Positions 1 through 64,000 of a stretch of 64,000 bases of DNA are shown one piece after another. Every line of letters begins with the position of its first letter. Position 1 is the first letter of the stretch. The notes beneath the pieces are model-generated. The model had not been told where the DNA came from. It made no database searches and saw nothing but the letters and a program-made list of their open reading frames with translations. This stretch comes from Tubulanus polymorphus (taxonomy: Eukaryota; Nemertea; Palaeonemertea; Tubulaniformes; Tubulanidae). The position numbers were made by a program, and so were the translations under genes. The stretch lies in contig NC_134033.1 in the NCBI RefSeq assembly GCF_964204645.1, positions 2,601,631 through 2,665,630 on the forward strand, in the 5' to 3' direction.

Positions 1-1041
1 ATCATTTTACTGATAAACTGTCGCAGATTTCAGTCGGTTCGTTACACGTTCCCCTATCTCATAACACTGGCGTTTTCGGATCAACTTGTCGTGTTGTTTG
101 GTTTAAGGAAATTCGCTAACACCATTGTGTCAACCCTAACAGATGGATTAGGATATCATCCGGAATGTAAAAGTTGGACTCTACATGGGCGTCAAAAGGG
201 CGTCGCATCATGTCCATCGATTTATTATTATTGGCATTATTTCTATCGTGTAATAGAACGGAATACTCCGGTTTGTTACATCGAGTATTTGTTCAATGAT
301 CAAGCGATCACTGTGTCTAATTATATCATTGTTGTGATTTCTATCGAGAGATTTGTCTCCGTTCGTTTTCCTTTTTTCCATATGAAATATTTCACCGTTA
401 CTCGACGTAGATTCGCCGTAATAATTGTAGTCGTTTCTGCAACAATTTTGAACTTGGATCTGCCGATATTTAATCGAATTAGGTTACCGAAAAGGCGTAA
501 TGGTGGCTACCACGAGTTCTACTGTAGTTCGTATAGTTATCGTGACAACACTGTCATGGTACGCACATACAGATCTGTTGCGGTATTTATTCGGGATATA
601 GTCCCGGTTTTGATTGTAGTAACAACATCAGTGGCAACTGCTAGAATTCGCCGTGGAGGTAAAACACGTATTGGCGCCTCAGTCGGCAACAGTCGTCATA
701 AAACTGAAACCAGTAAAACACTTCTACTAATAGTTCTTGTTTATCTGGTACTAGTAATGCCATACGCTATATGCGACTGTACGGACAAGTTGGCCAGTGT
801 GGTGTCCTCGTTAGTGCGTCGAATTAATGGCTTTGAAATCACTATCGGAGAAACCCCCATCATTGTCTTCTTTGTTAGGATACTGTGGAATATATTTGCC
901 CGGATATTAACGTTTCCTCGACAGTGCGTTTTCTGTGTGAATTTCTTTATATACGTAACAACGCTGAGAGTTTTCCGACGCAAACTTGTCGGTGTTTTCC
1001 GCTGTAACTGTCGCCGAACGATTCCGAGTCAGTCCCAGTAG
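1..1041 (+). CDS. Class A GPCR, copy 1 (5' end outside window)
   Basis: Plasma-membrane seven-transmembrane receptor; ligand unknown. Frame 1 is open from base 1, entering at the end of TM1 (IILLINCRR), and gives 346 residues to the TAG stop. Visible class A landmarks are the TM2 Asp in AFSDQLVV, the TM3 cysteine in PVCYIEYLF, the TM3 end SIERFVSVRF (an E-R-F version of the DRY motif), the TM5 proline in RDIVPVLIV, the TM6 proline in LVMPYAIC and NFFIY in TM7 in place of NPxxY. Loop 2 is of the NGGYHEFYC type and loop 3 of the NGFEITIGET type. The last residues SQSQ and the stop lie in a tRNA-like sequence. The first in-window initiator-like codon is GTG at 91, which is internal, so the true start lies left of the window. 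Confidence 0.85.
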   Translation: MILLINCRRFQSVRYTFPYLITLAFSDQLVVLFGLRKFANTIVSTLTDGLGYHPECKSWTLHGRQKGVASCPSIYYYWHYFYRVIERNTPVCYIEYLFNDQAITVSNYIIVVISIERFVSVRFPFFHMKYFTVTRRRFAVIIVVVSATILNLDLPIFNRIRLPKRRNGGYHEFYCSSYSYRDNTVMVRTYRSVAVFIRDIVPVLIVVTTSVATARIRRGGKTRIGASVGNSRHKTETSKTLLLIVLVYLVLVMPYAICDCTDKLASVVSSLVRRINGFEITIGETPIIVFFVRILWNIFARILTFPRQCVFCVNFFIYVTTLRVFRRKLVGVFRCNCRRTIPSQSQ

Positions 1042-1160
1042 CTCAGTGGGGTAAGGCGTGATGCTGTTGCATTCACTACCCTATCAGTGTCGAGTGGCAA
1101 ACGGGTTTGAGTTCTGCTGGCTGCTTACAATGCGTGCGGGGCTGTTGTCCAATCGTGACG
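1032..1160 (+). repeat. tRNA-like SINE-type tail of copy 1 (variant tail)
   Basis: A Pol III A-box-like TAGCTCAGTGGG begins at 1039 and a B-box-like GGTTTGAGTTC lies at 1104-1114. A tRNA-like head would start at 1032, inside the receptor's last codons, so the receptor stop TAG is also position 8 of the tRNA-like sequence. Only the tail at 47312 shares this version downstream. Confidence 0.5.
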
Positions 1161-2089
1161 GTAGATGATGGAAAATCAATGATCCAAAAGGATTGAAATA
1201 AACGATATTAATATCACTTAAACTGTACCATTTAATCAATTACCTAAACTTGATATTTAATGTCGTGGAAGCTAGGAACAAGGAAATTAACTAAGTTTTA
1301 TTGAAGCCTCGATCGATGAAATATATTGATTAATGTTTTCGATAATGAATAACTGAATGACAATGGGAACAGCATTAAACGAATATGATACCAAGACTCA
1401 TTCGCATCTGCGATGTACGGCGTATTCAGATCTCACTGGCCATGTTTTGGTAGAAAAAAACATATCATCAATTCAATCCATTGAATCGATAATATTGATC
1501 GGCAACTAATATTGCCCCAATGTCATCCTAGTAGTCAATAAAGATTCATTACCAAAAATATAATTCACGAAGTTTTGCTTATTGTAAAATAATCGCCAAA
1601 ATGTTCTCAACTGTATTGTATATTGAAGCCGGTTTGTGAAACGCCAATATCGATGACGTAGTGCACATTGACACACATACTGCACAAACCCCTTTTCGGA
1701 AAAACCAAAAAAAGGTTGAAGCTCATTTTTGCTTTTTTCTCAAAAAGATAAACCTGCTTGTCTTAACTATCAAGTTCATCGATATCCATCAGATATCCAA
1801 GAAGGCTATCCTGGTGGCCATATTTGACGTCTGATGACCTCCGTTTAGAAAATGTTGGGCATTGAAACGACTGTAAGACATCTAGAAGGGCATACTGATA
1901 CAGTGTGAACTGCCAGTTCGTTCAGTTTGCCATCCCGTGAAAAATAGGTCAGTGTCGTTCAGAATGATGTAACGGTCGTGATCTTCTGGCCAAATTTTTG
2001 TGTGCATTAAAACAAGTAGAAATTCTACTCACCAAATGATACTAAATTGCCATAGCACAGCGCCACTCTTCTATTCCATGTATTCATTT
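1161..2089. other. Spacer block shared only with 47.4-48.2 kb
   Basis: AT-rich sequence without a credible ORF. It closely matches the stretch after copy 15 until about 1890 (GACATC followed by a short divergence), so copies 1 and 15 share a duplicated 3' flank of about 0.85 kb. Confidence 0.6.
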
Positions 2090-3143
2090 TTTGGAAGACT
2101 TCCGCGGGCACTCCCTTATAGTTTCCGGATTCAGTTGATCAGATAATCCCGAGTCTAATTTCCTCAAGTTATGGAGAGTAAACGCGAGCGAACTTTAAAC
2201 ACGTATATTCCGATATGTTAAATCGCTTGTCGTGTGGACTGAAGACCGCGGGAACAACATCGAATAAAACCGCGTCAGAATAACTATATTCGAAGTTGAG
2301 AACACTGAAATTGTACGCGTGATTCAAGAAGTCGTCAGTTATTTGCAAATTAGCGAAATGAATTTCATATCCCTGAAAACTAGAGATTAACGCGGTTTTG
2401 CATGTGACCAGTTTGAAAATAGTTTTTTAAATCGATCTCGGGACCGATGAAATAAATATGAAGAAACTCGTGACACAAATATTTTCTTAAAAGAAACGGC
2501 CCAAAAAACAGGGTCCAGTTCGACAGTCATGAGTTAGAGTTAACTCTGAGTTAAATAAAGTCAGTTCATTTTCAATGAATTAACTCTGAGCCAGGTACTG
2601 GATCAAGGACAAAAGTACCCTAACAAAAAGGCGGCTAGCAACTTGATTGAAAATGGTTGCAAAAACTTATATCCAACGCGCGCTCATTCAAATACTTACT
2701 TGGCCATCTATATCTAAATTGTCCGTACATTTGTTGCGAGGTTCCAGTTTATCGCAAAACGTCATAAACGTTCTAGGAAGGACAGTGTTCTGTGTCGTGG
2801 TTCGTGTAGTTGAATGCAGCGGTGAAAGATATATGAGGGACTGGTACAAAGTGACCGGTCACCTGTTTATTGTAATGCGACAAACACGACCGAGCATCTG
2901 GCGAAACCCAGCGTGGCGAAAACGCGGCCGATTTTAAAAATCGCGAAAACATCTCTTAAATTGTCAAGTCAGATTGTCGAATCTAATAAGCAAAGTTCTA
3001 CAAGATAGGCTCAATGTTTCTGGTATATTGATTATAAATCAATTTTCAACCACGTGTGACCGTAATAACGACAGTTGGGGTAATATCAATCACGACAGAT
3101 CATCCAGATGTGACACGATGCCCCGAAGCAAATTTGACGACAA
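2090..3143. other. Type A spacer with degenerate conserved ORF
   Basis: It resembles the stretch before the tRNA in the other type A spacers. It has two GAGTTAACTC-like palindromes near 2535-2590 and a GGCGGCTAG core near 2630 (here AAGGCGGC, not ATGGCGGC). The open stretch 2653-2937 reads MVAKTYIQRALIQ and is homologous to the longer ORF at 26645, but ends early. Confidence 0.5.
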
Positions 3144-3828: not shown

Positions 3829-5073
3829 ATGAGAAATTTTACGCTGTCGCCACTACCGCAGCTTCTACCGACACGGCAGCTACTACCGACACGACAGCTA
3901 CTACCGACACGGCCGCCACCTTCGCTGCCAATGCCGCAGTTTATCAGGGCTTTCAATAAATTTCTCTACGAAAACAATGTTTTTATGCGCGTTGATATCG
4001 CTGAAGTATTGTTCCTGTATCCGTTGGGAAGCGCGTTCAACTTTCTGTCGATCATTTTACTGATGAAGTGTCGCAGATTTCAGTCAGTTCGTTACACGTT
4101 CCCTTATCTCATAACTATAGCGTTTTCGGATCAACTTGTCGTATTGTTTGGTTTAAGGAAATTCGCGAACACCATTGTGTCAATCCTAACCCGTGGATTA
4201 GGATACTATCCGGAATGTAAAAGTTGGACACTACTTGGGCGTCAAAAGGGCATTGCATCATGTCCATCGATTTATTATTATTGGCATTATTTCTATCGTG
4301 TAATTGAACGGTATACTCCGGTTTGTTACATCGATAATTTGTTCAATAATCAAGCGATCACTGTGTCTAATTATATCATCGTTGTGATTTCTATCGAGAG
4401 ATTTGTCTCCGTTCGTTTTCCTTTTCTTCACATGCAACATTTCACAGGAACTCGACGTAGATTCGCCATAATAATTGTAGTCGTTTTTGCCTTCATTTTA
4501 AACTTGGATTTACCGATATTTAATCGAATTAGGTTATCAAAGATTGGCTTATACTTATGTAGTTATAATAATCCCGACAACACTCTCATGGTTCAAACAT
4601 ACAGATCTGTTGCGGTATTTATTCGGGATATAGTCCCGGCTTTAATTGTATTAACAACATCAGTGGCAACTGCTAGAATTCGCCGGGGAGGTAAAACACG
4701 TATTGGTGCCTCAGTCGGCAACAGTCGTCATAAAACTGAAACCAGTAAAACACTTCTACTAATAGTTCTTGTTTATCTGTTACTAGTAATGCCATACGCT
4801 ACATGTGACTGTACGGACAAGTTGAGCAGTTTGGTGCCCTTGTTGGTGCGTCGAATAAATGGCTTCAAAATCACTTTTAGAAAAACCCCCATCATTTTCT
4901 TCTTTGTTAGGATACTGTGGAATATATTAGCCCGGATATTAACGCTTCCTCGACAGTGCGTTTTCTGCGTGAATTTCTTTATATACGTAACAACGCTGAA
5001 AGTTTTCCGACACAAACTTGTCGGTGTTTTCCGCTGTAACTGTCGCCGAACGGTTCAGAGTCAGTCCCTGTAG
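3829..5073 (+). CDS. Class A GPCR, copy 2
   Basis: Intact intronless receptor of 414 residues, used here as the reference. The N-terminus has an N-glycosylation sequon at Asn3 (NFT) and three LLPTR units (residues 12-28). TM1 is about 57-80 (Asn71), TM2 91-110 (Asp101), TM3 166-190 (Cys166, with E190-R191-F192 exactly 25 residues on), TM4 212-231, loop-2 Cys244, TM5 261-281 (Pro270), TM6 308-326 (Pro322), and TM7 about 365-390 (N382-F-F-I-Y386). This spacing matches class A numbering and supports a Cys166-Cys244 disulfide. The C-tail FRCNCRR may be palmitoylated. The ATG has A at -3 (TACGATGAG). There is no tryptophan at the usual TM4 and TM6 positions. TM7 resembles peptide and FMRFamide-type receptors by motif style only. 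The end, TVQSQSL, is shared only with copy 10. Confidence 0.9.
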   Translation: MRNFTLSPLPQLLPTRQLLPTRQLLPTRPPPSLPMPQFIRAFNKFLYENNVFMRVDIAEVLFLYPLGSAFNFLSIILLMKCRRFQSVRYTFPYLITIAFSDQLVVLFGLRKFANTIVSILTRGLGYYPECKSWTLLGRQKGIASCPSIYYYWHYFYRVIERYTPVCYIDNLFNNQAITVSNYIIVVISIERFVSVRFPFLHMQHFTGTRRRFAIIIVVVFAFILNLDLPIFNRIRLSKIGLYLCSYNNPDNTLMVQTYRSVAVFIRDIVPALIVLTTSVATARIRRGGKTRIGASVGNSRHKTETSKTLLLIVLVYLLLVMPYATCDCTDKLSSLVPLLVRRINGFKITFRKTPIIFFFVRILWNILARILTLPRQCVFCVNFFIYVTTLKVFRHKLVGVFRCNCRRTVQSQSL

Positions 5074-5510: not shown

Positions 5511-6784
5511 CTCTTATTTGAAATAAAACGTTATTAATATCGCTAAAACTGTACCATTTAATCAATTCTCTTCACTTGATATTAATGTTGTTGAAGCTTT
5601 AAACAAGAAAACTAACTAACTCAGTTTATTGAAGCCTTCAACGATAAAATGCATTGCTTAATATTGTCGAAAATGAATTACTGAGCGTTTTTGTTAAAAA
5701 CAGGGCGGATTTGACGAAAATATGGTCAATATACCAGGTCTAAACCGCATCTGCGGTGCATATCGCATTCAGATTTCACTGGTCACATTTTGGTAGTAAA
5801 TGTATATCGACAATTTAATGTTGTCCTAATTGCGATCGAAATCCATTTTAAAGAAGACATAAAAATTCATCAGATAGAAAATAATATTCGGGCCACATTC
5901 AACAAGATACGACGCTCGATAATCACTAATCATTTTTTTTTTACATTTTTACACTATTCGTTTTAACGCCACGTTACAACCAACCTTTCGGGGAGACCAA
6001 CTCAAAAAATCAAACGAAATCATTGACCAATCAAATAAATTATAGGGTCAATCCGTATTTTAATATATAGAAAGAATTAGCCTTTCGTTTTTACTGCGAA
6101 TCAGCAAATATGGTTTCAACAAAAAAAAAGCAGGTTAAACCCGAAAAGACCACGTTACAACGAACAACTGATCTTTCTTAAAATTTTTAAGTAGTGATTG
6201 ACCCTGAAGTTCATTTAAATGATAGATTTCGCTTGATTTGTTTCGATTTGATCGGTGTCCCTTACAGACCAAACCACCACACCTGCCGGGATCGAAACAG
6301 GGGGTTCGAATTAGAAATCAGCAATCGAAGTACAGATATAGTTGGCGATATATATCCGATCGGTTGTCGGATCTACAGATTTTTTTTGGTCTAAATCGAA
6401 GTACGTAATTGGAACTGGTTTAAACATGGCTCAAAACGAGAAAAATGTGGCGTTATGGCGGCTAGGAACTTTAAAACGGTTACTGAATCTTACATTCAAC
6501 GCGCGCTCTTTCAGTTACTTGTTACTTTCTTGGCCATATCTCTGTAAACTAGCCGCCAATAGATTTGTTGCGAAGTTAGACATTTTTCGCGAAATGGATC
6601 CTCGGACAAACTGGTGGTTCAAAGAGTTTCCGATTGCGACAACAAGAAACTAGGGTTTGGATTTTGAAAATCGATCGAAAATCGAAGCACGGATAGCTGG
6701 ATGTTTTAGCATTGGTTCTAGACTGGATATTCATAGTTAGGCTGCAGCTTTAGTAGTGATTTTTGCGCGTGATTTCAAAAATAA
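5511..6784. other. Type B spacer with conserved short ORF
   Basis: AT-rich spacer with a poly-T run near 5933 and the shared ATGGCGGCTAG core at 6455-6465. An ORF from ATG 6426 to 6653 (75 residues, starting MAQNEKNVALWRL, good context AAACATGGC) is the clearest of the type B ORFs. About 90 bp present at 57.60-57.69 kb is missing near 6748. Confidence 0.5.
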
Positions 6785-6900
6785 TACACGACGAGAAATA
6801 TGTTCACAGTTCGTCTGTAATGTGCGTATTGCTGCATAAAGCCGACAGATTCGAAGCGCATTCAACAACCACGTACAGAAAAAACAGGGAGTGTCAATCT
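6785..6900 (+). promoter_or_regulatory. Conserved upstream block, copy 3 (octamer mutated)
   Basis: Same block as at 3485, but the octamer position reads ATGTGCGT (6820-6827). Copy 18 has the same change. Confidence 0.3.
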
Positions 6901-7027
6901 GAAGAGCTTACCAGAGGAGAGAGGCAGGAGTGATATCGTAAACTCGATGTTACATAGAACTGAATCAGTTGACGCGAAGGAGGAAAACTTCAAGTTAATT
7001 CTCAAGCGCTCGTGAGATTAATTTACG

Positions 7028-8239
7028 ATGAGAAATTTAACCCTAACCCCGCTACCTCCGCCACGTCCAGTTCCACTGCTGCAGTTTATCCGGGCGTTCG
7101 CGCAATTTTTCCGTGATAACGGTGTTTATAGACGCATGGATTTCGCTAAAGCATTGTTCCTGTATCCGCTGGGAAGCGTGTTCAACTTTCTGACAATCAT
7201 TTTACTGATAAAGTGTCGCAAATATCAGTCGGTTCGTTACACGTTCCCCTATCTCATAACACTAGCGTTTTCGGATCAACTTGTCGTGTTGTTTGGTTTA
7301 AGAACATTCGCTGTAACCATCAGGACATTTGTTATCTACGAATTAGGATATTATCCGGAATGTAAGAGTCGGATGGTGTTTGAAAGTAAAGAGGCAAGTG
7401 CATTATGTCCATTGATTTACTATTACTGGTATTATTTCTATAGTGTAATAGAACGGAATATTCCGATATGTTACATCGAGAATTTGTTCAATAATCAAGC
7501 GATCACTGTGTCTAATTATATCATTGTTGTGATTTCTATCGAGAGATTTGTCTCCGTTCGTTTTCCATTTTTTCACATGAAAAATTTCACCGCAACTAAC
7601 CGTAGATATGCCCTAATAATTGTGGTCGTTTTTGCAATCATTTTGAACTTAGATCTACCGATATTCAATAGAATTAGGTTAGTAAAAACAATTTATGGTG
7701 GCTACGATGTGTTCTCCTGTAGTCATAGTAGTTTTAATTTCGACATCATTGTCGTGATTCGTACATACAGATCTGTTGCGGTATTTATTCGGGATATAGT
7801 CCCGGTTTTGATTGTAGTAACGACATCAGTAGCAACTGCTACAATTCGCCGGGGAGGTAAAACACGTATTGGCGCCTCAGTCGGCAACAGTCGTCATAAA
7901 ACTGAAACCAGTAAAACACTTCTACTAATAGTTCTTGTTTATCTGGTACTAGTAATGCCATACGCTATATGTGAATGTTGGAACAATTTGTTCCATTTGG
8001 TGTTCTCGTTATCGATTATGATTAATCGCTTCGTAATCACTCCTACAGAAAACCCCATCATTTTCTTCTTTGTTTTAACGTTGTGGAACACATTATCCAA
8101 TATGTTAACACTTCCTCGACAGTGCGTTTTCTGCCTGAATTTCTTTATATACGTAACAACGCTGAGAGTTTTCCGACACAAACTTGTCGGTGTTTTCCGC
8201 TGTAGTCCGCTTGTCAGTCCCAGTAGCTCAGTGGGTTAA
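7028..8239 (+). CDS. Class A GPCR, copy 3 (divergent loop set)
   Basis: Intact, 403 residues, most divergent group with copies 9, 12 and 18. The N-terminus is Pro-rich without LLPTR units (TPLPPPRPVPLLQF) but keeps the sequon NLT. Loop 1 carries RTFVIYELGYYPEC and a distinctive MVFESKEASALCP segment. Loop 2 is GGYDVFSCSHSSFNF and loop 3 NRFVITPTENP. Loop residues differ strongly while TM3, TM5-TM6 and the end of TM7 are nearly those of copy 2. The C-terminus SPLVSPSSSVG ends at a TAA inside the tRNA-like sequence. Its near twin is copy 18, with three residue differences, all in loop 1 and the approach to TM3. Confidence 0.9.
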   Translation: MRNLTLTPLPPPRPVPLLQFIRAFAQFFRDNGVYRRMDFAKALFLYPLGSVFNFLTIILLIKCRKYQSVRYTFPYLITLAFSDQLVVLFGLRTFAVTIRTFVIYELGYYPECKSRMVFESKEASALCPLIYYYWYYFYSVIERNIPICYIENLFNNQAITVSNYIIVVISIERFVSVRFPFFHMKNFTATNRRYALIIVVVFAIILNLDLPIFNRIRLVKTIYGGYDVFSCSHSSFNFDIIVVIRTYRSVAVFIRDIVPVLIVVTTSVATATIRRGGKTRIGASVGNSRHKTETSKTLLLIVLVYLVLVMPYAICECWNNLFHLVFSLSIMINRFVITPTENPIIFFFVLTLWNTLSNMLTLPRQCVFCLNFFIYVTTLRVFRHKLVGVFRCSPLVSPSSSVG

Positions 8240-8460
8240 GGCGACGATTCCCTTCAAAAATACTGTTTGTATAAGGACGATTCCGCCTACTGTACGACGG
8301 TCGAAACATTGTCCCCGTTTCATATAAGACTGAAGAAATATTTCAATTCAAAAAAACGAGCGCGAAGTAAAAAATGCGGTGAAATTCATCATTTGCCGAT
8401 CGAAAAATAGAAACTCTACTTACCAAACAATCATTAATTGCCAACAACTTTCAGACTTCC
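8213..8460 (+). repeat. tRNA-like tail II of copy 3
   Basis: It has an intact A-box-like TAGCTCAGTGGG but no convincing B box. The sequence after GGCGACGATTCCC is unrelated to tail I. All tail II genes are followed by type A spacers. Confidence 0.45.
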
Positions 8461-9464
8461 GCGCGCACTTCCTTTTATGGTTTCGGATTCAGTTGATGAG
8501 ATAATCCCGAGTCTAATTTCCTCAAGTTATGGAGAGTAAACGCGAGCGAACTTTAAACATGTATATTCCGATATGTTAAATCGCTTGTCGTGTGGACTGA
8601 ACACCGCGGGAACAACATTGAATAACACCGCGTCAAAATTAACTATATTCGAAGTTGAGAACACTGAAATTGTACGCGTGATTCAAGAAGTCGTCAGTTA
8701 TTTGCAAATTAGCGAAATGAATTTCATATCCCTGAAAACTAGAGATTAACGCGGTTTTGCATGTGACCAGTTTGAAAATAGTTTTTTAAATCGATCTCGG
8801 GACCGATGAAATAAATATGAAGCAACTCGTGACACAAATATTTTCTTAAAAGAAACGGCCCAAAAAACAGGGTCCAGTTCGACAGTCATGAGTTAGAGTT
8901 AACTCTGAGTTAAATAAAGTCAGTTCATTTTCAATGAGTTAACTCTGAGCCAGGTACTGGATCAAGGACAATATACCCTAACAAAAGGCGGCTAGCAACT
9001 TGATTGAAAATGGTTACAAAAACTTATATCCAATGCGCGCTCATTCAAATATTTACTTGGCCATCTCTATCTAAACTGTCCGTACATTTGTTGCGAGGTT
9101 CCAGTTTATCGCAAAACGTCATAAACGTTCTAGGAAGGACAGTGTTCTGTGTCGTGGTTCGTGTAGTTGAATGCAGCGGTGAAAGATATATGAGGGACTG
9201 GTACAAAGTGACCGGTCACCTGTTTATTGTAATGCGACAAACACGACCGAGCATCTGGCGAAACCCAGTGTGGCGAAAACGCGGCCGATTTCAAACTCGT
9301 GAAAACATCTTTAAAAATTGTCAAGATAGGCTCAATATTTCTTGTATATTGATTATGAATCAATTTTCAACCACGTGTGACCGTTATAACGACAGTTGGG
9401 GTAACATCAATCACGATGGATCATCCAGATGTTACTCCATGCCTCGTAGCGAACTTGACGACAA
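8461..9464. other. Type A spacer with conserved ORF
   Basis: It contains paired GAGTTAACTC-like palindromes (about 8896-8950), a GGCGGCTAG core without its ATG near 8990, and an open frame 9010-9486 homologous to the ORF at 26645. That frame runs into the tRNA gene, so at least its end is unlikely to be coding. Confidence 0.45.
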
Positions 9465-9537
9465 GCCTCCAAAGCTCAGGGGTTAGAGCACTGGTCTTGT
9501 AAACCTGGGGTCGAGAGTTCAAATCTCTCTGGGGGCA
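9465..9537 (+). tRNA. tRNA-Thr (TGT), weakened
   Basis: Acceptor and T arm are as at 3144, and a T7 run sits at 9547-9553. Two defects are visible: position 8 is A instead of T (AAGCTC), which damages the A box, and the anticodon stem CTGGT/ACCTG has a T-T mismatch. It may be decaying. Confidence 0.55.
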
Positions 9538-9790
9538 TGGCTGCAATTTTTTTCGCGAAATGGATCCTCGGACGCTGGTGATTCAAAAAAAACTAGGGGT
9601 TTGATTTGTAAAACCTATCGGAAATCGAAGCACGGACAGTTGGATTGATTGGTTCTGGATATTCAAAGTTAAGCTGCAGCTTTAGTAGTGAATATATATA
9701 GTTTAAATTCCTCTCATATTGTCGCATCAAACCACGAAATAGAACATGTTATATGTATATACATATTTCTGCGCGTGATTTCAAAAAAGA

Positions 9791-9905
9791 TTCACGACGA
9801 GAAATATGTTCACAGTTCGTCTGTAATTTGCATGTTGCTGCATAAAGCCGACAGATTCGAAGCGCGTTCAACAACCATGTACGGAAAAAACAGGGAGTGT
9901 CAATT
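9791..9905 (+). promoter_or_regulatory. Conserved upstream block with octamer, copy 4
   Basis: Octamer ATTTGCAT at 9826-9833, about 290 bp before the usual ATG position. Confidence 0.35.
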
Positions 9906-9934
9906 TAGAGAGCTTACCGGCAGTCTGACGTAAG

Positions 9935-10028
9935 GGAGTGAGAGAGGGAGGAGAGAGGAAGTAGAGAGTTGGAGAGAGAGAGGGAAAGAGAGAGGAAGGA
10001 GAGAGAGATGGCAGAGTGAGGGAGAGAT
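9935..10028 (+). repeat. GA-rich polypurine tract
   Basis: GAGAG/GGAGAGAG repeats between the octamer block and copy 4. The copy at 60864 looks identical. Confidence 0.75.
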
Positions 10029-10222
10029 ATCGTAAACTCGATGATACGTAGAACTGAATCCGTTGACGCGAAGGAGGAAAACTTCAGGTTATTTCTCAAA
10101 CGCTCGTGAGATTTATATACGATGAGAAATTTTACGCTGTCGCCGCTACCGCAGCTACTACCGACACGACAGCTACTACCGACACGCAGCTACTACCGAC
10201 ACGGCCGCCACCTTCGCTGCCA

Positions 10223-39227: not shown

Positions 39228-39295
39228 GCCTCCATAGGGGTTAGAGCACTGGTCTTGTAAACCAGGGGTCGAGAGTTCAAATCTCTCTGGGGGCA
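39228..39295 (+). pseudogene. tRNA-Thr (TGT) pseudogene, D-arm deletion
   Basis: The anticodon arm, T arm and acceptor are intact, but five bases (CTCAG) are missing from the D arm and A box. It is unlikely to be transcribed or folded correctly. A T5 run lies at 39308-39312. Confidence 0.8.
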
Positions 39296-54646: not shown

Positions 54647-55909
54647 ATGAGAAATTTTACGCTGTCGCCACTACCGCAGCTACTACCGACACGACAGCTA
54701 CTACCGACACGACAGCTACTACCGACACGACAGCTACTACCGACACGGCCGCCACCTTCGCTGCCAATGCCGCAGTTTATCAGGGCTTTCAATAAATTTC
54801 TCTACGAAAACAATGTTTTTAGGCGCGTTGATATCGCTGAAGTATTGTTCCTGTATCCGCTGGGAAGCGTGTTCAACTTTCTGACGATCATTTCACTGAT
54901 AAAGTGTCGCAGATATCAGTCGGTTCGTTACACGTTCCCCTATCTCATAACACTAGCGTTTTCGGATCAACTTGTCGTGTTGTTTGGTTTAAGGAAATTC
55001 GCGAACACCATTGTGTCAATCCTAACCCGTGGATTAGGATACTATCCGGAATGTAAAAGTTGGACTCTACTTGGGCGTCAAAAGGGCATCGCATCATGTC
55101 CATCGATTTACTATTATTGGCATTATTTCTATCGTGTAATTGAACGGTATACTCCGGTTTGTTACATCGAGAATTTGTTCAATAATCAAGCGATCACTGT
55201 GTCTAATTATATCATTGTTGTGATTTCTATCGAGAGATTTGTCTCCGTTCGGTTTCCTTTTCTTCACATGCAACATTTCACTGGAACTCGACGTAGATTT
55301 GCCGTAATAATTGTAGTCGTTTTTGCAACCATTTTAAACTTGGATTTACCGATATTTAATCGAATTAGGTTATCAACGATTGGCTTATACTTATGTAGTT
55401 ATAATAATCCCGACAACACTCTCATGGTTCGTACATACAGATCTGTTGCGGTATTTATTCGGGATATAGTCCCGGCTTTCATTGTATTAACAACATCAGT
55501 GGCAACTGCTAGAATTCGCCGTGGAGGTAAAACACGTATTGGCGCCTCAGTCGGCAACAGTCGTCATAAAACTGAAACCAGTAAAACACTTCTACTAATA
55601 GTTCTTGTTTATCTGTTACTAGTAATGCCATACGCTACATGTGACTGTACGGACAAGTTGAGCAGTTTGGTGCCCTTGTTGGTGCGTCGAATAAATGGCT
55701 TCAAAATCACTTTTAGAACAACCCCCATCATTTTCTTCTTTGTTAGGATACTGTGGAATATATTAGCCCGGATATTAACGCTTCCTCGACAATGCGTTTT
55801 CTGCGTGAATTTCTTTATATACGTAACAACGCTGAGAGTTTTCCGACACAAACTTGTCGGTGTTTTCCGCTGTAACTGTCGCCGAACGATTCCGAGTCAG
55901 TCCCAGTAG
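54647..55909 (+). CDS. Class A GPCR, copy 17 (four LLPTR units)
   Basis: Intact, 420 residues. It has the largest LLPTR repeat number (four), against three in copies 2, 7 and 10. Loop 2 is IGLYLCSYNNPDN and loop 3 NGFKITFRTTP. SLIKCRRY in TM1 is shared with copy 4, but YATCDC and LVPLLVRR with copies 2 and 10, so it mixes both. Ends RTIPSQSQ. It occupies the position equivalent to copy 2 in the 50.9-kb duplication but is less similar to it than the downstream parts are to each other. Confidence 0.9.
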   Translation: MRNFTLSPLPQLLPTRQLLPTRQLLPTRQLLPTRPPPSLPMPQFIRAFNKFLYENNVFRRVDIAEVLFLYPLGSVFNFLTIISLIKCRRYQSVRYTFPYLITLAFSDQLVVLFGLRKFANTIVSILTRGLGYYPECKSWTLLGRQKGIASCPSIYYYWHYFYRVIERYTPVCYIENLFNNQAITVSNYIIVVISIERFVSVRFPFLHMQHFTGTRRRFAVIIVVVFATILNLDLPIFNRIRLSTIGLYLCSYNNPDNTLMVRTYRSVAVFIRDIVPAFIVLTTSVATARIRRGGKTRIGASVGNSRHKTETSKTLLLIVLVYLLLVMPYATCDCTDKLSSLVPLLVRRINGFKITFRTTPIIFFFVRILWNILARILTLPRQCVFCVNFFIYVTTLRVFRHKLVGVFRCNCRRTIPSQSQ

Positions 55910-56345: not shown

Positions 56346-57718
56346 ACTCTTATTTGAAATAAAACGTTATTAATATCGCTAAAACTGTACCATTTAATCA
56401 ATTCTCTTCACTTGATATTAATGTTGTTGAAGCTTTAAACAAGAAAACTAACTAACTCAGTTTATTGAAGCCTTGAACGATAAAATGCATTGCTTAATAT
56501 TGTCGAAAATGAATTACTGAGCGTTTTTGTTAAAAACAGGGCGGATTTGACGAAAATATGGTCAATATACCAGGTCTAAACCGCATCTGCGGTGCATATC
56601 GCATTCAGATTTCAATGGTCACATTTAGGTAGTGAATTTATATCGACAATTCAATGTTGTCCTAATTGCGATCGAAATTCATTTTAAAGAAGACATAAAA
56701 ATTCATCAGATAGAAAATAATATTCGGGCCACATTCAACAAGATACGACGCTCGATAATCACTAATCATTTTTTTTTTTACATTTTTACACTATTCGTTT
56801 TAACGCCACGTTACAACCAACCTTTCGGGGAGACCAACTCAAAAAATCAAACGAAATCATTGACCAATCAAATAAATTATAGGGTCAATCCGTATTTTAA
56901 TATATAGAAAGAATTAGCCTTTCGTTTTTACTGCGAATCAGCAAATATGGTTTCAACAAAAAAAAAACAGGTTAAACCCGAAAAGACCACGTTACAACGA
57001 ACAACTGATCTTTCTTAAAATTCTTAAGTAGTGATTGACCCTGAAGTTCATTTAATTGATAGATTTCGCTTGATTTGTTTCGATTTGATCGGTGTCCCTT
57101 ACAGACCCACCCACGACACCTGCCGGGAACGAAACAGGGGGTTCAAATTAGAAATCAGCAATCGAAGTACAGATATAGTTGGCGATATATATCCGATCGG
57201 TTGTCGGATTTACAGAATTTTTTCGTTTAAATCGGAGTTCGTAATTGGAACTGGTTTAAACATGGCTCAAAACGAGAAAAATGTGGCGTTATGGCGGCTA
57301 GGAACTTTAAAACGGTTACTGAATCTTACATTCAACGCGCGCTCTTTCAGTTACTTTTTACTTACTTGGCCATATCTCTGTAAACTAGCCGCCAATAAAT
57401 TTGTTGCGAAGTTAGACATTTTTCGCGAAATGGATCCTCGGACACTGGTGGTTCAATGAGTTTTCGATTGCGACAACAAGAAACTAGGGTTTGGATTTTG
57501 AAAATCGATCGAAAATCGAAGCACGGATAGCTGGATGTTTTAGCATTGGTTCTAGACTGGATATTCAAAGTTAGGCTGCAGCTTTAGTAGTGAATATATA
57601 TAGTTTAAATTCCTTTCATATTGTCGCGTCAAACCACGAAATACATACATATACATTTATTACATGTATATACATGTTACATGTATATACATATTTCTGC
57701 GCGTGATTTCAAAAATAA
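56346..57718. other. Type B spacer with conserved ORF
   Basis: ATGGCGGCTAG core at 57291-57301. ORF from ATG 57262 to 57459 (65 residues). It retains the segment of about 90 bp with two TTACATGTATATACAT repeats (57656-57690) that is deleted before copy 3. Confidence 0.45.
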
Positions 57719-57825
57719 TACACGACGAGAAATATGTTCACAGTTCGTCTGTAATGTGCGTATTGCTGCATAAAGCCGACAGATTCGAAGCGCATTCAAC
57801 AACCATGTACAAACAGGGAGTGTCA
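57719..57825 (+). promoter_or_regulatory. Conserved upstream block, copy 18 (octamer mutated)
   Basis: ATGTGCGT at the octamer position, as in copy 3. A GGAAAAA stretch after ATGTAC is also missing. Confidence 0.3.
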
Positions 57826-57956
57826 ATCTGAAGAGCTTACCGGAGGAGAGAGGCAGGAGAGATATCGTAAACTCGATGTAACATAGAACTGAATCAGTTG
57901 ACGCGAAGGAGGAAAACTTCAAGTTAATTCTCAAGCGCTCGTGAGATTAATTTACG

Positions 57957-59168
57957 ATGAGAAATTTAACCCTAACCCCGCTACCTCCGCCACGTCCAGT
58001 TCCACTGCTGCAGTTTATCCGGGCGTTCGCGCAATTTTTCCGTGATAACGGTGTTTATAGACGCATGGATTTTGCTAAAGCATTGTTCCTGTATCCGCTG
58101 GGAAGCGTGTTCAACTTTCTGACAATCATTTTACTGATAAAGTGTCGCAAATATCAGTCGGTTCGTTACACGTTCCCCTATCTCATAACACTAGCGTTTT
58201 CGGATCAACTTGTCGTGTTGTTTGGTTTAAGAACATTCGCTGTAACCATCAGGACATTGGTTATCTACGAATTAGGATATCATCCGGAATGTAAGAGTCG
58301 GATGGTGTTTGAAAGTAAAGAGGCAAGTGCATTATGTCCATCGATTTACTATTACTGGTATTATTTCTATAGTGTAATAGAACGGAATATTCCGATATGT
58401 TACATCGAGAATTTGTTCAATAATCAAGCGATCACTGTGTCTAATTATATCATTGTTGTGATTTCTATCGAGAGATTTGTCTCCGTTCGTTTTCCATTTT
58501 TTCACATGAAAAATTTCACCGCAACTAACCGTAGATATGCCCTAATAATTGTGGTCGTTTTTGCAATCATTTTGAACTTAGATCTACCGATATTCAATAG
58601 AATTAGGTTAGTAAAAACAATTTATGGTGGCTACGATGTGTTCTCCTGTAGTCATAGTAGTTTTAATTTCGACATCATTGTCGTGATTCGTACATACAGA
58701 TCTGTTGCGGTATTTATTCGGGATATAGTCCCGGTTTTGATTGTAGTAACGACATCAGTAGCAACTGCTACAATTCGCCGGGGAGGTAAAACACGTATTG
58801 GCGCCTCAGTCGGCAACAGTCGTCATAAAACTGAAACCAGTAAAACACTTCTACTAATAGTTCTTGTTTATCTGGTACTAGTAATGCCATACGCTATATG
58901 TGAATGTTGGAACAATTTGTTCCATTTGGTGTTCTCGTTATCGATTATGATTAATCGCTTCGTAATCACTCCTACAGAAAACCCCATCATTTTCTTCTTT
59001 GTTTTAACGTTGTGGAACACATTATCCAATATGTTAACACTTCCTCGACAGTGCGTTTTCTGCCTGAATTTCTTTATATACGTAACAACGCTGAGAGTTT
59101 TCCGACACAAACTTGTCGGTGTTTTCCGCTGTAGTCCGCTTGTCAGTCCCAGTAGCTCAGTGGGTTAA
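57957..59168 (+). CDS. Class A GPCR, copy 18 (twin of copy 3)
   Basis: Intact, 403 residues. It differs from copy 3 at three residues only: IRTLVIYELGYHPEC against IRTFVIYELGYYPEC, and CPSIYYYW against CPLIYYYW, plus one silent change near 58072. All differences lie before about 58345; the rest of the gene and its flank look identical. The S and H variants match other family members, so a short conversion tract is possible. Confidence 0.9.
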   Translation: MRNLTLTPLPPPRPVPLLQFIRAFAQFFRDNGVYRRMDFAKALFLYPLGSVFNFLTIILLIKCRKYQSVRYTFPYLITLAFSDQLVVLFGLRTFAVTIRTLVIYELGYHPECKSRMVFESKEASALCPSIYYYWYYFYSVIERNIPICYIENLFNNQAITVSNYIIVVISIERFVSVRFPFFHMKNFTATNRRYALIIVVVFAIILNLDLPIFNRIRLVKTIYGGYDVFSCSHSSFNFDIIVVIRTYRSVAVFIRDIVPVLIVVTTSVATATIRRGGKTRIGASVGNSRHKTETSKTLLLIVLVYLVLVMPYAICECWNNLFHLVFSLSIMINRFVITPTENPIIFFFVLTLWNTLSNMLTLPRQCVFCLNFFIYVTTLRVFRHKLVGVFRCSPLVSPSSSVG

Positions 59169-59390
59169 GGCGACGATTCCCTTCAAAAATACTGTTTGTA
59201 TAAGGACGATTCCGCCTACTGTACGACGGTCGAAACATTGTCCCCGTTTCATATAAGACTGAAGAAATATTTCAATTCAAAAAAACGAGCGCGAAGTAAA
59301 AAATGCGGTGAAATTCATCATTTGCCGATCGAAAAATAGAAACTCTACTTACCAAACAATCATTAATTGCCAACAACTTTCAGACTTCCG
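59142..59390 (+). repeat. tRNA-like tail II of copy 18
   Basis: Identical by eye to the tail of copy 3, with the stop TAA in the D-arm-like part. Confidence 0.45.
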
Positions 59391-60393
59391 CGCGCACTTC
59401 CTTTTATGGTTTCGGATTCAGTTGATGAGATAATCCCGAGTCTAATTTCCTCAAGTTATGGAGAGTAAACGCGAGCGAACTTTAAACATGTATATTCCGA
59501 TATGTTAAATCGCTTGTCGTGTGGACTGAACACCGCGGGAACAACATTGAATAACACCGCGTCAAAATTAACTATATTCGAAGTTGAGAACACTGAAATT
59601 GTACGCGTGATTCAAGAAGTCGTCAGTTATTTGCAAATTAGCGAAATGAATTTCATATCCCTGAAAACTAGAGATTAACGCGGTTTTGCATGTGACCAGT
59701 TTGAAAATAGTTTTTTAAATCGATCTCGGGACCGATGAAATAAATATGAAGCAACTCGTGACACAAATATTTTCTTAAAAGAAACGGCCCAAAAAACAGG
59801 GTCCAGTTCGACAGTCATGAGTTAGAGTTAACTCTGAGTTAAATAAAGTCAGTTCATTTTCAATGAGTTAACTCTGAGCCAGGTACTGGATCAAGGACAA
59901 TATACCCTAACAAAAGGCGGCTAGCAACTTGATTGAAAATGGTTACAAAAACTTATATCCAATGCGCGCTCATTCAAATATTTACTTGGCCATCTCTATC
60001 TAAACTGTCCGTACATTTGTTGCGAGGTTCCAGTTTATCGCAAAACGTCATAAACGTTCTAGGAAGGACAGTGTTCTGTGTCGTGGTTCGTGTAGTTGAA
60101 TGCAGCGGTGAAAGATATATGAGGGACTGGTACAAAGTGACCGGTCACCTGTTTATTGTAATGCGACAAACACGACCGAGCATCTGGCGAAACCCAGTGT
60201 GGCGAAAACGCGGCCGATTTCAAACTCGTGAAAACATCTTTAAAAATTGTCAAGATAGGCTCAATATTTCTTGTATATTGATTATGAATCAATTTTCAAC
60301 CACGTGTGACCGTTATAACGACAGTTGGGGTAACATCAATCACGATGGATCATCCAGATGTTACTCCATGCCTCGTAGCGAACTTGACGACAA
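59391..60393. other. Type A spacer with conserved ORF
   Basis: Identical by eye to 8462-9464, including the frame 59939-60415 and the GGCGGCTAG core lacking its ATG. Confidence 0.5.
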
Positions 60394-60466
60394 GCCTCCA
60401 AAGCTCAGGGGTTAGAGCACTGGTCTTGTAAACCTGGGGTCGAGAGTTCAAATCTCTCTGGGGGCA
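60394..60466 (+). tRNA. tRNA-Thr (TGT), weakened
   Basis: Identical to the gene at 9465, including A at position 8 and the anticodon-stem mismatch. T7 run at 60476-60482. Confidence 0.55.
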
Positions 60467-60719
60467 TGGCTGCAATTTTTTTCGCGAAATGGATCCTCGG
60501 ACGCTGGTGATTCAAAAAAAACTAGGGGTTTGATTTGTAAAACCTATCGGAAATCGAAGCACGGACAGTTGGATTGATTGGTTCTGGATATTCAAAGTTA
60601 AGCTGCAGCTTTAGTAGTGAATATATATAGTTTAAATTCCTCTCATATTGTCGCATCAAACCACGAAATAGAACATGTTATATGTATATACATATTTCTG
60701 CGCGTGATTTCAAAAAAGA

Positions 60720-60834
60720 TTCACGACGAGAAATATGTTCACAGTTCGTCTGTAATTTGCATGTTGCTGCATAAAGCCGACAGATTCGAAGCGCGTTCAA
60801 CAACCATGTACGGAAAAAACAGGGAGTGTCAATT
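60720..60834 (+). promoter_or_regulatory. Conserved upstream block with octamer, copy 19
   Basis: ATTTGCAT at 60755-60762. Confidence 0.35.
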
Positions 60835-60863
60835 TAGAGAGCTTACCGGCAGTCTGACGTAAG

Positions 60864-60957
60864 GGAGTGAGAGAGGGAGGAGAGAGGAAGTAGAGAGTTG
60901 GAGAGAGAGAGGGAAAGAGAGAGGAAGGAGAGAGAGATGGCAGAGTGAGGGAGAGAT
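60864..60957 (+). repeat. GA-rich polypurine tract
   Basis: Identical by eye to 9935-10028. Confidence 0.75.
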
Positions 60958-61151
60958 ATCGTAAACTCGATGATACGTAGAACTGAATCCGTTGACGCGA
61001 AGGAGGAAAACTTCAGGTTATTTCTCAAACGCTCGTGAGATTTATATACGATGAGAAATTTTACGCTGTCGCCGCTACCGCAGCTACTACCGACACGACA
61101 GCTACTACCGACACGCAGCTACTACCGACACGGCCGCCACCTTCGCTGCCA

Positions 61152-62294
61152 ATGCCGCAGTTTATCAGGGCTTTCAATAAATTTCTCTACGAAAACAATG
61201 TTTTTAGGCGCGTTGATATCGCTGAAGTATTGTTCCTGTATCCGCTGGGAAGCGTGTTCAACTTTCTGACGATCATTTCACTGATAAAGTGTCGCAGATA
61301 TCAGTCAGTTCGTTACACGTTCCCCTACCTCATAACACTAGCGTTTTCGGATCAACTTGTCGTGTTGTTTGGTTTAAGGAAATTCGCGAACACCATTGTG
61401 TCAATCCTAACCCGTGGATTAGGATACTATCCGGAATGTAAAAGTTGGACTCTACTTGGGCGTCAAAAGGGCATCGCATCATGTCCATCGATTTACTATT
61501 ATTGGCATTATTTCTATCGTGTAATTGAACGGTATACTCCGGTTTGTTACATCGATAATTTGTTCAATAATCAAGCGATCACTGTGTCTAATTATATCAT
61601 CGTTGTGATTTCTATCGAGAGATTTGTCTCCGTTCGTTTTCCTTTTCTTCACATGCAACATTTCACAGGAACTCGACGTAGATTTGCCGTAATAATTGTA
61701 GTCGCTTTTGCCGTCATTTTAAACTTGGATTTACCGATATTTAATCGAATTAGGTTATCAAAGATTGGCTTATACTTATGTAGTTATAATAATCCCGACA
61801 ACACTCTCATGGTTCGTACACACAGATCTGTTGCGGTATTTATTCGGGATATAGTCCCGGCTTTAATTGTATTAACAACATCAGTGGCAACTGCTAGAAT
61901 TCGCCGGGGAGGTAAAACACGTATTGGCGCCTCAGTCGGCAACAGTCGTCATAAAACTGAAACCAGTAAAACACTTCTACTAATAGTTCTTGTTTATCTG
62001 GTACTAGTAATGCCATACGCTATATGTGACTGTACGGACAAGTTGGCCATTTTGGTGTCCTCGTTAGCGCGTCGAATAAATGGCTTCAAAATCACTTTTA
62101 GAGAAACCCCCATCATTTTCTTCTTTGTTAGGATACTGTGGAATATATTAGCCCGGATATTAACGTTTCCTCGACAGTGCGTTTTCTGCGTGAATTTCTT
62201 TATATACGTAACAACGCTGAGAGTTTTCCGACACAAACTTGTCGGTGTTTTCCGCTGCAACTGTCGCCGAACGGTTCCGCGTCAGTCCCAGTAG
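61152..62294 (+). CDS. Class A GPCR, copy 19 (twin of copy 4, frameshifted N-terminus)
   Basis: Protein and flanks appear identical to copy 4. The family ATG at 61051 leads to the same frameshift (missing A near 61114), and the receptor frame has its first Met at 61152 (380 residues). The shared lesion shows that the frameshift predates the duplication. A sequencing error is unlikely if both copies are real, but not if one is an assembly duplicate. Confidence 0.65.
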   Translation: MPQFIRAFNKFLYENNVFRRVDIAEVLFLYPLGSVFNFLTIISLIKCRRYQSVRYTFPYLITLAFSDQLVVLFGLRKFANTIVSILTRGLGYYPECKSWTLLGRQKGIASCPSIYYYWHYFYRVIERYTPVCYIDNLFNNQAITVSNYIIVVISIERFVSVRFPFLHMQHFTGTRRRFAVIIVVAFAVILNLDLPIFNRIRLSKIGLYLCSYNNPDNTLMVRTHRSVAVFIRDIVPALIVLTTSVATARIRRGGKTRIGASVGNSRHKTETSKTLLLIVLVYLVLVMPYAICDCTDKLAILVSSLARRINGFKITFRETPIIFFFVRILWNILARILTFPRQCVFCVNFFIYVTTLRVFRHKLVGVFRCNCRRTVPRQSQ

Positions 62295-62730
62295 CTCAGT
62301 GGGGTAAGGCGAGATGCATTCACTATCAGTATTGAGCGGCATCGGGTTCGAGTTCTGCTGCCTGCTTATAGCGTGTGCGGGCTTCGAGTCCTGCTGGCTG
62401 CTTATAGAGTGTGCGGGCAACACTTCGCAGACCTTGGTCCGGTCGGGATAGAATCTCGGGGGGGGGGGGGGGCAGACTTGGGAAAACCAATCCGGTGTTG
62501 AATCACAAATCCAGCTTCCCATCCTAATGTAAACGATGGTAATAATTAACCCAACAGGGTTAGTGTGGTGAAATTAAGATCCAACTGACGTAAAGCGCTG
62601 AGGTACAAGCAGGTTCTAGTCCTGCTGGCTGTGTACAGTGTACGGGTCCTTAATCCCATCCTGAAGGAAAACCGTGTTAAATGAACCCAACAGGGTTAGT
62701 ATGTGGTGAAACCAAGATCCAACTCTAAAG
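62283..62730 (+). repeat. tRNA-like SINE-type tail I of copy 19
   Basis: Same as the tail of copy 4, with intact A box and the same 15-G run (62458-62472). Confidence 0.55.
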
Positions 62731-63425
62731 CAAGATGAACTCTTATTTGAAATAAAACTTTATTAATATCACTAAAACTGTACCATTTAATCAATTCTCT
62801 TCACTTGATATTAATGTTGTTGAAACTTTAAACAAGAAAACTAACTAACTCAGTTTATTGAAGCCTTGAACGATAAAATGCATTGCTTAATATTGTCGAA
62901 AATGAATTACTGAGCGTTTTTGTTAAAAACAGGGCGGATTTGACGAAAATATGGTCAATATACCAGGTCTAAACCGCATCTGCGGTGCATATCGCATTCA
63001 GATTTCAATGGTCACATTTAGGTAGTGAATTTATATCGACAATTTAATGTTGTCCTAATTGCGATCGAAATTCATTTTAAAGAAGACATAGAAATTCATC
63101 AGATAGAAAATAATATTCGGGCCACATTCAGCAAGATACGACGCTCGATAATCACTAATCATTTTTTTTTTACATTTTTACACTATTCGTTTTAACGCCA
63201 CGTTACAACCAACCTTTCGGGGAGACCAACTCAAAAAATCAAACGAAATCATCGACCAATCAAATAAATTATAGGGTCAATCCGTATTTTAATATATAGA
63301 AAGAATTAGCCTTTCGTTTTTACTTCGAATCAGCAAATATGGTTTCAACAAAAAAAAACAGGTTAAACCCGAAAAGACCACGTTACAACGAACAACTGAT
63401 CTTTCTTAAAATTTTTAAGTAGTGA
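62731..63425. other. Truncated type B spacer
   Basis: Same as 11801-12496, ending at the shared deletion breakpoint. Confidence 0.7.
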
Positions 63426-63957
63426 CCACGAGTTCTACTGTAGTCATTACAGTAATATTGACAACACTGTCATGGTTCAAATATACAGATCTGTTGCGGT
63501 ATTTATTCGGGATATAGTCCCGGCTTTGATTGTAGTAACAACATCAGTGGCAACTGCTAGAATTCGCCGGGGAGGTAAAACACGTATTGGCGCCTCAGTC
63601 GGCAACAGTCGTCATAAAACTGAAACCAGTAAAACACTCCTACTAATACTTCTTGTTTATCTGGTACTAGTTCTACCATACGCTATATGTGACTGTACGG
63701 ACAAGTTGGCCAGTTTGGTGTCCTCGTTAGTGCAGAAAATTAATGGCTTCAAAATCACTTTTAGAACAACCCCCATCATTTTCTTCTTTGTTAGGATGCT
63801 GTGGAATATATTAGCCCGGATATTAACGCTTCCTCGACAGTGCGTTTTCTGCGTGAATTTCTTTATATACGTAACAACGCTGAAAGTTTTCCGACACAAA
63901 CTTGTCGGTGTTTTCCGCTGTAACTGTCGCCGAACGGTTCCGAGTCAGTCCCAGTAG
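63426..63957 (+). pseudogene. GPCR 3' fragment, copy 20
   Basis: Identical by eye to copy 5: it starts in loop 2 and keeps TM5-TM7 in frame (MVQIYRSVAVF from 63472) to SQSQ. Confidence 0.85.
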
Positions 63958-64000
63958 TCAGTGGGATAAGGCGAGATGCATTCACTATCAGTGTTGAGCG
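63946..64000 (+). repeat. tRNA-like SINE-type tail I, cut by window end
   Basis: Damaged A box TAGTCAGTGGG. The repeat continues beyond the window. Confidence 0.45.

Follow-up and report, generated by a model that had tools for sequence, protein, structure and literature searches.

The DNA analysed here comes from the nemertean Tubulanus polymorphus (RefSeq assembly GCF_964204645.1, contig NC_134033.1, positions 2,601,631 to 2,665,630 of the forward strand). The window, by which we mean this whole stretch of 64,000 nucleotides, carries 20 receptor copies, all on the forward (+) strand, as determined by tblastn, the list of open reading frames (ORFs), and copy-by-copy inspection. Judged by its sequence, the locus is a tandem array of single-exon genes for predicted rhodopsin-class (class A) seven-transmembrane (7TM) receptors. 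An earlier interpretation made from the letters and their ORFs (the sequence-only reading) had counted 20 same-strand copies of a G-protein-coupled receptor (GPCR), which our searches reproduced; its copy numbering and loop 2 types agree with ours for copies 1–4, 6–8, 10, and 12–19. The copies can be sub-divided into 12 that are complete and intact (2, 3, 6, 7, 8, 10, 12, 13, 15, 16, 17, and 18), one cut by the window edge (1), four that are frameshifted (4, 9, 14, and 19), and three 3′ fragments (5, 11, and 20). The complete copies are single-ORF genes whose open frame begins at a conserved MRN[F/L]TL start, or MSNLTL in copy 12. Successive full-length copies from 2 to 19 are mostly evenly spaced, with start-to-start steps of 3.1–3.3 kb in 11 of 15 cases. 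Tandem single-exon copies accompanied by pseudogenes, as expected of an animal chemoreceptor repertoire, are thus what the window contains.

Individual copies are described here by the versions of their extracellular loops, given as loop 2/loop 3. Among the intact copies, IGLYLC/NGFKITFR is found in copy 2 (3829..5073) and copy 17 (54647..55909), the latter having an N-terminus with four QLLPTR repeats; copy 10 (27819..29063) is a near relative of copy 2, and copy 7 (18306..19562) combines an S-type loop 1 with IGLYLC/NGFEITFR. Copies 6 (15055..16254) and 8 (21573..22793) both have NDGGF/NGSKTNRRET, and an S-type loop 1 accompanies NDGGF/NGFEITIGET in copy 15 (46118..47323) and GGYHEFYC/NGFEITPTET in copy 16 (51384..52607). 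A divergent group is formed by copies 3 (7028..8239; GGYDVFSC/NRFVITPTEN), 12 (36032..37243; GIQQFFC/NGFRIT), and 13 (39816..41138; GGYYEFYC/NGFKVDLREN, with an extended C-terminus); copy 18 (57957..59168) is also intact and lies in the 99.8% twin of the block that holds copy 3. Copy 1 (1..1041; GGYHEFYC/NGFEITIGET) has lost its 5′ end at the window edge. Of the damaged copies, copy 4 (10122..11365; IGLYLC/NGFKITFR) is frameshifted within an 18-nt repeat that follows the ATG, in the N-terminus, the remainder being open, and shares this defect with its twin, copy 19 (61051..62294). Copy 9 (24704..25856) is a pseudogene with a deletion in loop 2 and a frameshift, and copy 14 (42927..44113; NDGGF/NGSKTNRRET) is frameshifted in transmembrane helix (TM) 1 and has a K-type loop 1 (TFAN, 2 of 48 nt different from copy 2). 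The 18-nt repeat, which encodes QLLPTR, is in frame and varies in number in the N-termini of copies 2 (3829-3940), 4, 7, 10, 17, and 19; the start frame of copies 4 and 19 is broken by a frame change inside it.

The 3′ fragments, copies 5 (12501..13028), 11 (32497..33024; resembling copy 5), and 20 (63430..63957; the twin of copy 5), run from loop 2 to the end of the gene. The sequence-only reading had given them a GGYHEFYC loop. We find that receptor-like sequence starts at HEFYC and is preceded by intergenic DNA; the junction was seen for copy 5, and the 60 bases preceding fragments 11 and 20 are the same as those before copy 5. Two blocks on the forward strand, 6759..13071 and 57693..64000, the second of which extends past the window end, are nearly identical (99.78% over 6313 bp, with 9 mismatches and 1 gap opening) and 51 kb apart, and represent either a recent multi-unit duplication or an assembly duplicate. 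Because of this identity, copies 18–20 add almost nothing independent to copies 3–5. Unequal crossing-over, which had been proposed earlier, is suggested by the multi-unit block together with the fragments in which a gene is fused to intergenic DNA. Since the left edge of the window lies inside a gene and the right edge inside a duplicated block, the array probably continues beyond the window.

All 17 sequences scanned, which represent as many of the 20 copies, match Pfam 7tm_1 at E values up to 0.01; the alignment scanned leaves out copies 4, 19, and 20 and the 3′ part of copy 9. Single scans gave 56.7 bits for copy 15, 41.7 for copy 3, and 46.6 for copy 12, against a gathering cut-off of 30.5. 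The alignment contains the class A anchors N1.50, D2.50, C3.25 with its loop 2 cysteine, P5.50, P6.50, N7.49, and Y7.53, and ERF at 3.49-3.51 as the [D/E]R anchor; departures are V at 6.48, F at 7.50, and a changed P5.50 in copy 14. Residue position numbers are our assignment, made from the class A anchors, the TM4 anchor being left unassigned. Sequence searches of the PDB gave no match at E 0.001 with one copy or at E 0.01 with a profile, and the four weak rows returned at E up to 10 (three to the alpha-1A adrenergic receptor and one to neuromedin U receptor 1) were not used. An AlphaFold model of the 17-sequence alignment was discarded owing to a mean predicted local distance difference test (pLDDT) score of 32.3, so the topology used below is the one read from the anchor residues. 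No relatives were found in viral and prokaryotic contig collections, a result that is uninformative for an animal gene.

The copies differ mostly around the extracellular mouth, where variable sites form a ring, and scarcely at all in TM3, TM5, and TM6. Among 16 sequences, positions 2.60, 5.29, 6.61-6.62, and 7.28 show as many as five different residues each, whereas only one or two are seen at 3.34-3.58, 5.37-5.50, and 6.44-6.55. There is one inward exception, position 1.59 with four residues, and TM4 is also variable. Most variation is therefore extracellular rather than, as in vertebrate-type odorant receptors, mainly within the transmembrane pocket.

Divergence at silent sites carries the main finding. 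Pooled Nei–Gojobori estimates of nonsynonymous (dN) and synonymous (dS) divergence were made on 18 sequences, without copies 18, 19, and 20 and with copy 9 entered as two pieces. In the core, dS is 0.070 for TM3, 0.047 for TM5 through intracellular loop (ICL) 3 to TM6, and 0.052 for TM7 and helix 8 (TM7-H8); in the exposed segments it is 0.43 for the N-terminus, 0.37 and 0.27 for the two parts of loop 1, 0.32 for loop 2, and 0.20 for the loop 3 region. TM1 (0.15) and ICL1-TM2 (0.14) lie between these values. Core dN is low (0.030-0.045), compared with 0.30 in loop 2 and 0.11 in TM4. The transition is abrupt: mean divergence per 50-nt window among 14 copies is 0.24 in loop 2 but already 0.035 one window further on, and it reaches 0.006 in ICL3, these means omitting pairs above 0.35, so that the loop 2 window retains 77 of 91 pairs.

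Neighbouring DNA provides a useful yardstick. Divergence at strict fourfold sites, compared in 55 pairs of 11 copies (without copy 17, whose upstream DNA differs), is 0.034 in the core and 0.107 in the loops, against 0.108 in 250 bp of upstream DNA. The core/upstream ratio is 0.31 (bootstrap 0.19-0.47), the loop/core ratio is 3.2 (bootstrap 2.2-5.0), and the core is less diverged than upstream DNA in 54 of 55 pairs. We considered whether the loops are older than their flanks and dropped the idea: the Nei–Gojobori proportion of synonymous differences (pS), compared in 12 copies, is higher in loops than upstream in 51 of 66 pairs, the fourfold measure in only 29 of 55. The upstream slices of copies 4 and 19 are offset by 10 bases in one upstream alignment.

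Since silent sites are uniform in the core, protein constraint is insufficient as an explanation, and short-tract gene conversion can supply one. What had been called an invariant core is indeed near-uniform, but because it is more alike than its neighbours at silent sites too, it is better described as a homogenised core. The weakest alternative, namely recent tandem duplication with ordinary purifying selection that holds the core protein while the loops drift, fits the low core dN and the evident youth of the units (flank window means of 2–15% in pairs within the 0.35 cut) and is nonetheless very improbable, because constraint on the protein would not keep silent sites at about a third of upstream divergence, other segments have a lower ratio of nonsynonymous to synonymous rates (omega) than the core (0.54–0.80), and the data reject a bifurcating tree. 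The sequence-only reading had itself allowed that loops with dS as high as dN would mean simple drift; loop 2 literally shows this, but drift fails because silent divergence in the core is 3–5 times lower.

Recombination between copies, also proposed earlier, is borne out. Approximately unbiased (AU) tree tests used 13 copies, and tract tests and distance correlations at most 14. The loop tree is rejected by the data of TM1-TM2 (AU 0.009), TM5-TM6 (0.0002), and TM7-H8 (0.006), and loops 1, 2, and 3 mutually reject one another's trees. In a parametric bootstrap of the loop tree, the observed misfit was reached in 0 of 60 simulations for TM1-TM2, 0 of 60 for TM5-TM6, and 2 of 60 for TM7-H8, and in 0 of 60 for each loop against another (3 against 2, 2 against 1, and 1 against 3); the free trees of the simulated data were found by fast search, so that the misfit of the simulations may come out too low. 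The pairwise homoplasy index (PHI) gives p 0.001 with 12 and with 14 copies and, in the 12 copies, p 0.002 for third positions and p 0.041 when these are limited to invariant residues. A single bifurcating tree for all segments, which would have spoken against exchange, is thus rejected by three kinds of test. Significant identical tracts of 39 to 123 nt (global bound, 300 permutations) occur in 12 of 91 pairs, at loop 1 to early TM3, TM2, ICL2/TM4, loop 3, and TM7, though some of these pairs, copies 6 and 8 among them, are closely related in any case. Copies 3 and 12 are identical over a tract of 117 nt that begins in loop 1 and extends into TM3; loop sequence, therefore, does transfer. Segments of the gene have conflicting histories, that is, there is exchange between copies, and conflict among segment trees occurs together with homogenised silent sites, as it does in families under conversion.

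Whether the loops travel together depends on the copies compared. Over 12–14 copies, loop distances correlate with one another (Mantel r 0.43-0.82), and those of TM1-TM2 and TM7-H8 are uncorrelated with the loops (r -0.23 to 0.15). When one copy per near-duplicate group is kept (8 copies), rank correlation gives p<0.05 among loop pairs only for N-terminus/loop 1 and N-terminus/loop 3. In copies 1, 2, 6, 7, 8, 14, 15, and 16, a set with one member of the copy 2 group and without the divergent copies 3, 12, and 13, no correlation is left in any loop pair (rho -0.52 to 0.19). The earlier statement that loop versions are not linked holds in this last set and is overstated for the wider one; strict co-inheritance of loops was likewise dropped, as the correlation disappears once the copy 2 group is reduced to one member and the three divergent copies are set aside. 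A K-type loop 1 occurs with IGLYLC (copy 2), NDGGF (copy 14), and GGYHEFYC (copy 1), and an S-type loop 1 with IGLYLC (copy 7), NDGGF (copy 6), and GGYHEFYC (copy 16). All six pairings of the two loop 1 types with the three loop 2 types are thus present, from which we conclude that loops were reshuffled; this grid counts the TFAN of copy 14 as K-type and includes that frameshifted copy and the edge-cut copy 1. Across all three loops, there are 10 distinct combinations in 14 copies if TFAN is counted apart from KFAN. Reshuffling is real, within a family that also holds coherent subgroups. Cassette reshuffling, as first put forward, is therefore right in that loops are exchanged, but the main footprint of recombination is homogenisation of the core at silent sites, more than loop swapping.

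Selection was assessed per segment with a Goldman–Yang (GY) codon model on the 12 complete copies in ten segments, the omega = 1 runs having the transition/transversion ratio (kappa) fixed at its estimate. Omega is 1.68 in loop 3 (twice the log-likelihood difference from omega 1, 5.15; p ~0.02 before correction for ten segments), 1.04 in loop 2, 0.76 in the N-terminus, and 0.77 and 0.42 in loop 1. Elsewhere, it is 0.35 in TM1-TM2, 0.28 in ICL2-TM4, 0.55 in TM3, 0.54 in TM5-TM6, and 0.80 in TM7-H8. The expectation that dN/dS would exceed 1 in the N-terminus and loops and nowhere else was not borne out: only loop 3 is clearly above 1, on marginal statistical support, with loop 2 near 1 and the N-terminus and loop 1 below it. 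A selective pressure that keeps the loops different is plausible but unproven.

Taken together, we favour, at a probability of roughly 0.7, a chemoreceptor-like array under partial concerted evolution, in which the core is homogenised by conversion and the loops are kept different and partly reshuffled. Unequal crossing-over would add and remove units, leaving multi-unit twins and gene/intergenic fusion fragments, while short conversion tracts would spread the core among copies and now and then move loops. Selection against losing loop diversity, possibly aided by poor homology between divergent loops, may spare the loops from conversion. All copies would then share one signalling machine, with TM3, TM5-ICL3-TM6, and TM7-H8 as the putative G-protein-coupling and activation core, and each would recognise its ligand differently at the extracellular mouth. 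As an overall account, the earlier interpretation is partly supported; the combinatorial sensory repertoire that it suggested is a hypothesis.

Several results weigh against partial concerted evolution with selected loops, and the reader should keep them in mind. The non-extracellular ICL2 (dS 0.28) and TM4 (dS 0.39) are loop-like in silent divergence although ICL2-TM4 is clearly under purifying selection (omega 0.28); loop selection does not explain this unless by hitch-hiking. The codon model on 12 copies yields no omega above 1 that survives correction for ten segments. Neither the loop 1 tree nor the N-terminus plus loop 1 tree is rejected by TM1-TM2 data (AU 0.078 for both), and the ICL2-TM4 tree is not rejected by loop 2 data (AU 0.062). 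Loop distances correlate with those of TM5-TM6 (r 0.32-0.57) and TM3 (0.50-0.69), so the core is not fully decoupled and part of it retains loop history; in nine copies, without 3, 12, and 13, a correlation with loops 1 and 2 is seen for TM1-TM2 as well. The guanine-plus-cytosine content at third positions (GC3) is not consistently raised in the core: TM5-TM6 has the lowest value of ten segments (0.263), and TM3 (0.440) and TM7-H8 (0.447) fall between loop 2 (0.349) and loop 3 (0.537). Finally, loop fourfold divergence equals that of upstream DNA.

This last result also suits the alternative that survives best, in which conversion is limited to the core purely by a homology barrier, divergent loops being unable to pair, with no selection for loop diversity. 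It would likewise lead one to expect the omega values seen in the N-terminus and in loops 1 and 2, which are about 1 or lower. We nevertheless consider it unlikely, if worth serious attention, since there is enough similarity for pairing in TM1, ICL1-TM2, ICL2, and TM4, which are nonetheless less homogenised (dS 0.14–0.39), the tract shared by copies 3 and 12 crosses from loop 1 into TM3, and omega in loop 3 is 1.68, with the uncorrected p value given above. A second alternative is constraint on the core at the nucleotide level (RNA structure, an overlapping element, or codon bias), to which recombination would add little. It would account for core blocks that coincide with functional domains, for the unusual GC3 of TM5-TM6, and for TM5-TM6 and TM3 distances that still track those of the loops. 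Constraint alone, however, would not cause TM5-TM6 and TM1-TM2 data to conflict with the loop tree, and the core is also kept in copies 5 and 11 and in the 3′ part of pseudogene 9, whose three nearest TM5-TM6 distances are 0.00-0.04 each, though these may just be young; we regard this explanation as improbable. An assembly artefact, in which collapsed or duplicated haplotypes produce part of the array, is quite improbable: the 6.3 kb blocks, one of them at the window end, do invite the suspicion, but the other matches over 800 bp, among the longest 70 listed, are only 82-98% identical, and the copies have their own loops and insertions or deletions, so that only copies 18–20 could be removed.

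The pattern of variation bears on function. It is largely the reverse of that in odorant receptors and may point to ligands that make contact in the outer vestibule, peptides or proteins for example; going by sequence features, the most likely role is a chemoreceptor-like repertoire for peptide-like or other outer-vestibule ligands. A bolder and rather doubtful proposal is that the loops are semi-independent modules on a fixed transducer, with conversion both keeping the core common and making new ectodomain combinations from a few loop versions, for vestibule-binding (peptide or protein) ligands. Were it true, the array would be a natural modular system of receptor diversification. The array is, in any event, a compact natural test of the way in which conversion and selection divide one gene between them, in which silent sites show the blocks that were exchanged and those that resisted. 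If loops specify the ligand, the six loop 1 by loop 2 combinations are matched natural chimeras on a similar transmembrane background, and receptor specificity could be mapped to loops directly.

Other elements lie between the receptor genes. Seven tRNA-Thr(TGT) genes or relics, identified with Rfam on the forward strand (3144-3216, 9465-9537, 20873-20945, 27157-27229, 39228-39295, 42341-42413, and 60394-60466), each stand ~0.6-0.7 kb upstream of a receptor copy; their Rfam scores range from 72 down to 44 bits, and for this reason some have the appearance of relics that decay while carried along with the repeat unit. Four related ORFs, 160-196 aa long (9004-9486, 20282-20788, 26576-27166, and 59933-60415, +) adjoin or overlap the tRNA; one of the four, that at 26576, was scanned and gave no Pfam match, and they are possibly non-coding repeat sequence. 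Directly downstream of copy 10, on the reverse strand, is a reverse transcriptase ORF of 648 aa (29423-31369; Pfam RVT_1), which probably belongs to a 5′-truncated element without long terminal repeats (non-LTR) inserted after that copy. Stretches resembling a tRNA A box occur on the forward strand just past the stop of copy 4 (11360-11400) and past the retrotransposon ORF (31367-31400); we presume that a tRNA-derived short interspersed nuclear element (SINE) is possible. In 14 copies, the ~300 bp before each receptor start can be aligned in 78 to 91 of 91 pairs, with median divergence of 0.02-0.125 per 50-column window, and this region is possibly a shared promoter.

How does the array compare with known systems? 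The clustered protocadherins (Pcdh) likewise combine a part that is uniform in nucleotide sequence with a recognition part that is diverse; in the fugu clusters, conversion among tandem paralogues is invoked since silent sites are homogenised, and GC3 is raised in converted regions (PMC1852091). Protocadherins are, however, cadherin adhesion proteins with a 3′ homogenised region (PMC1852091), whereas the array has several short core blocks alternating with variable loops and no consistent rise in GC3. Vertebrate odorant receptors (ORs) and type 1 vomeronasal receptors (V1Rs), compared here by published descriptions and not by direct sequence comparison, resemble the array in their tandem class A clusters, conversion-made mosaics, pseudogenes, and retrotransposons (PMC1325023, PMC1995454, PMC3914689). 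In the zebrafish OR data cited, dN/dS is higher in TM1 and TM3-TM6 than in loops, with two loop 3 sites above 1 (PMC1325023), and hypervariable, putative odorant-binding OR residues have been placed in a TM3-TM7 pocket (PMC1995454). The array, by contrast with zebrafish ORs, has a variable extracellular mouth and a nearly fixed TM3, TM5, and TM6, though its TM4 varies too; on the side of likeness, lemur V1R lineages are described as differing in TM4, TM5, and loop 2 (PMC3914689).

Within the molluscs, the Aplysia candidate chemoreceptor genes AcCRa-c are, as described, similar in being rhodopsin-class, chiefly single-exon, and clustered, with a variable N-terminus, a conserved TM3 (subfamily b), and a reverse-oriented non-LTR element between two genes (PMC2700072). 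The likeness is one of description, and there are differences: AcCR genes are spaced at 9-13 kb and have an ERC motif, where the array has mostly 3.1–3.3 kb and ERF; the terms 'gene conversion' and 'tandem' are absent from the main text of that paper (PMC2700072). A further case is that of the primate red/green opsins, likewise duplicated class A GPCRs that undergo conversion and have a divergence peak at the function-determining part (PMC3924837). There, two genes and two residues are involved, as against 14 compared copies and four extracellular segments in the array, where selection is only suggestive. In the work cited, a local divergence peak between converting duplicates is treated as a sign of selection under conversion (PMC3924837). 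The divergence peaks of the array match that expectation and therefore favour a core homogenised by conversion beneath loops that are kept different.

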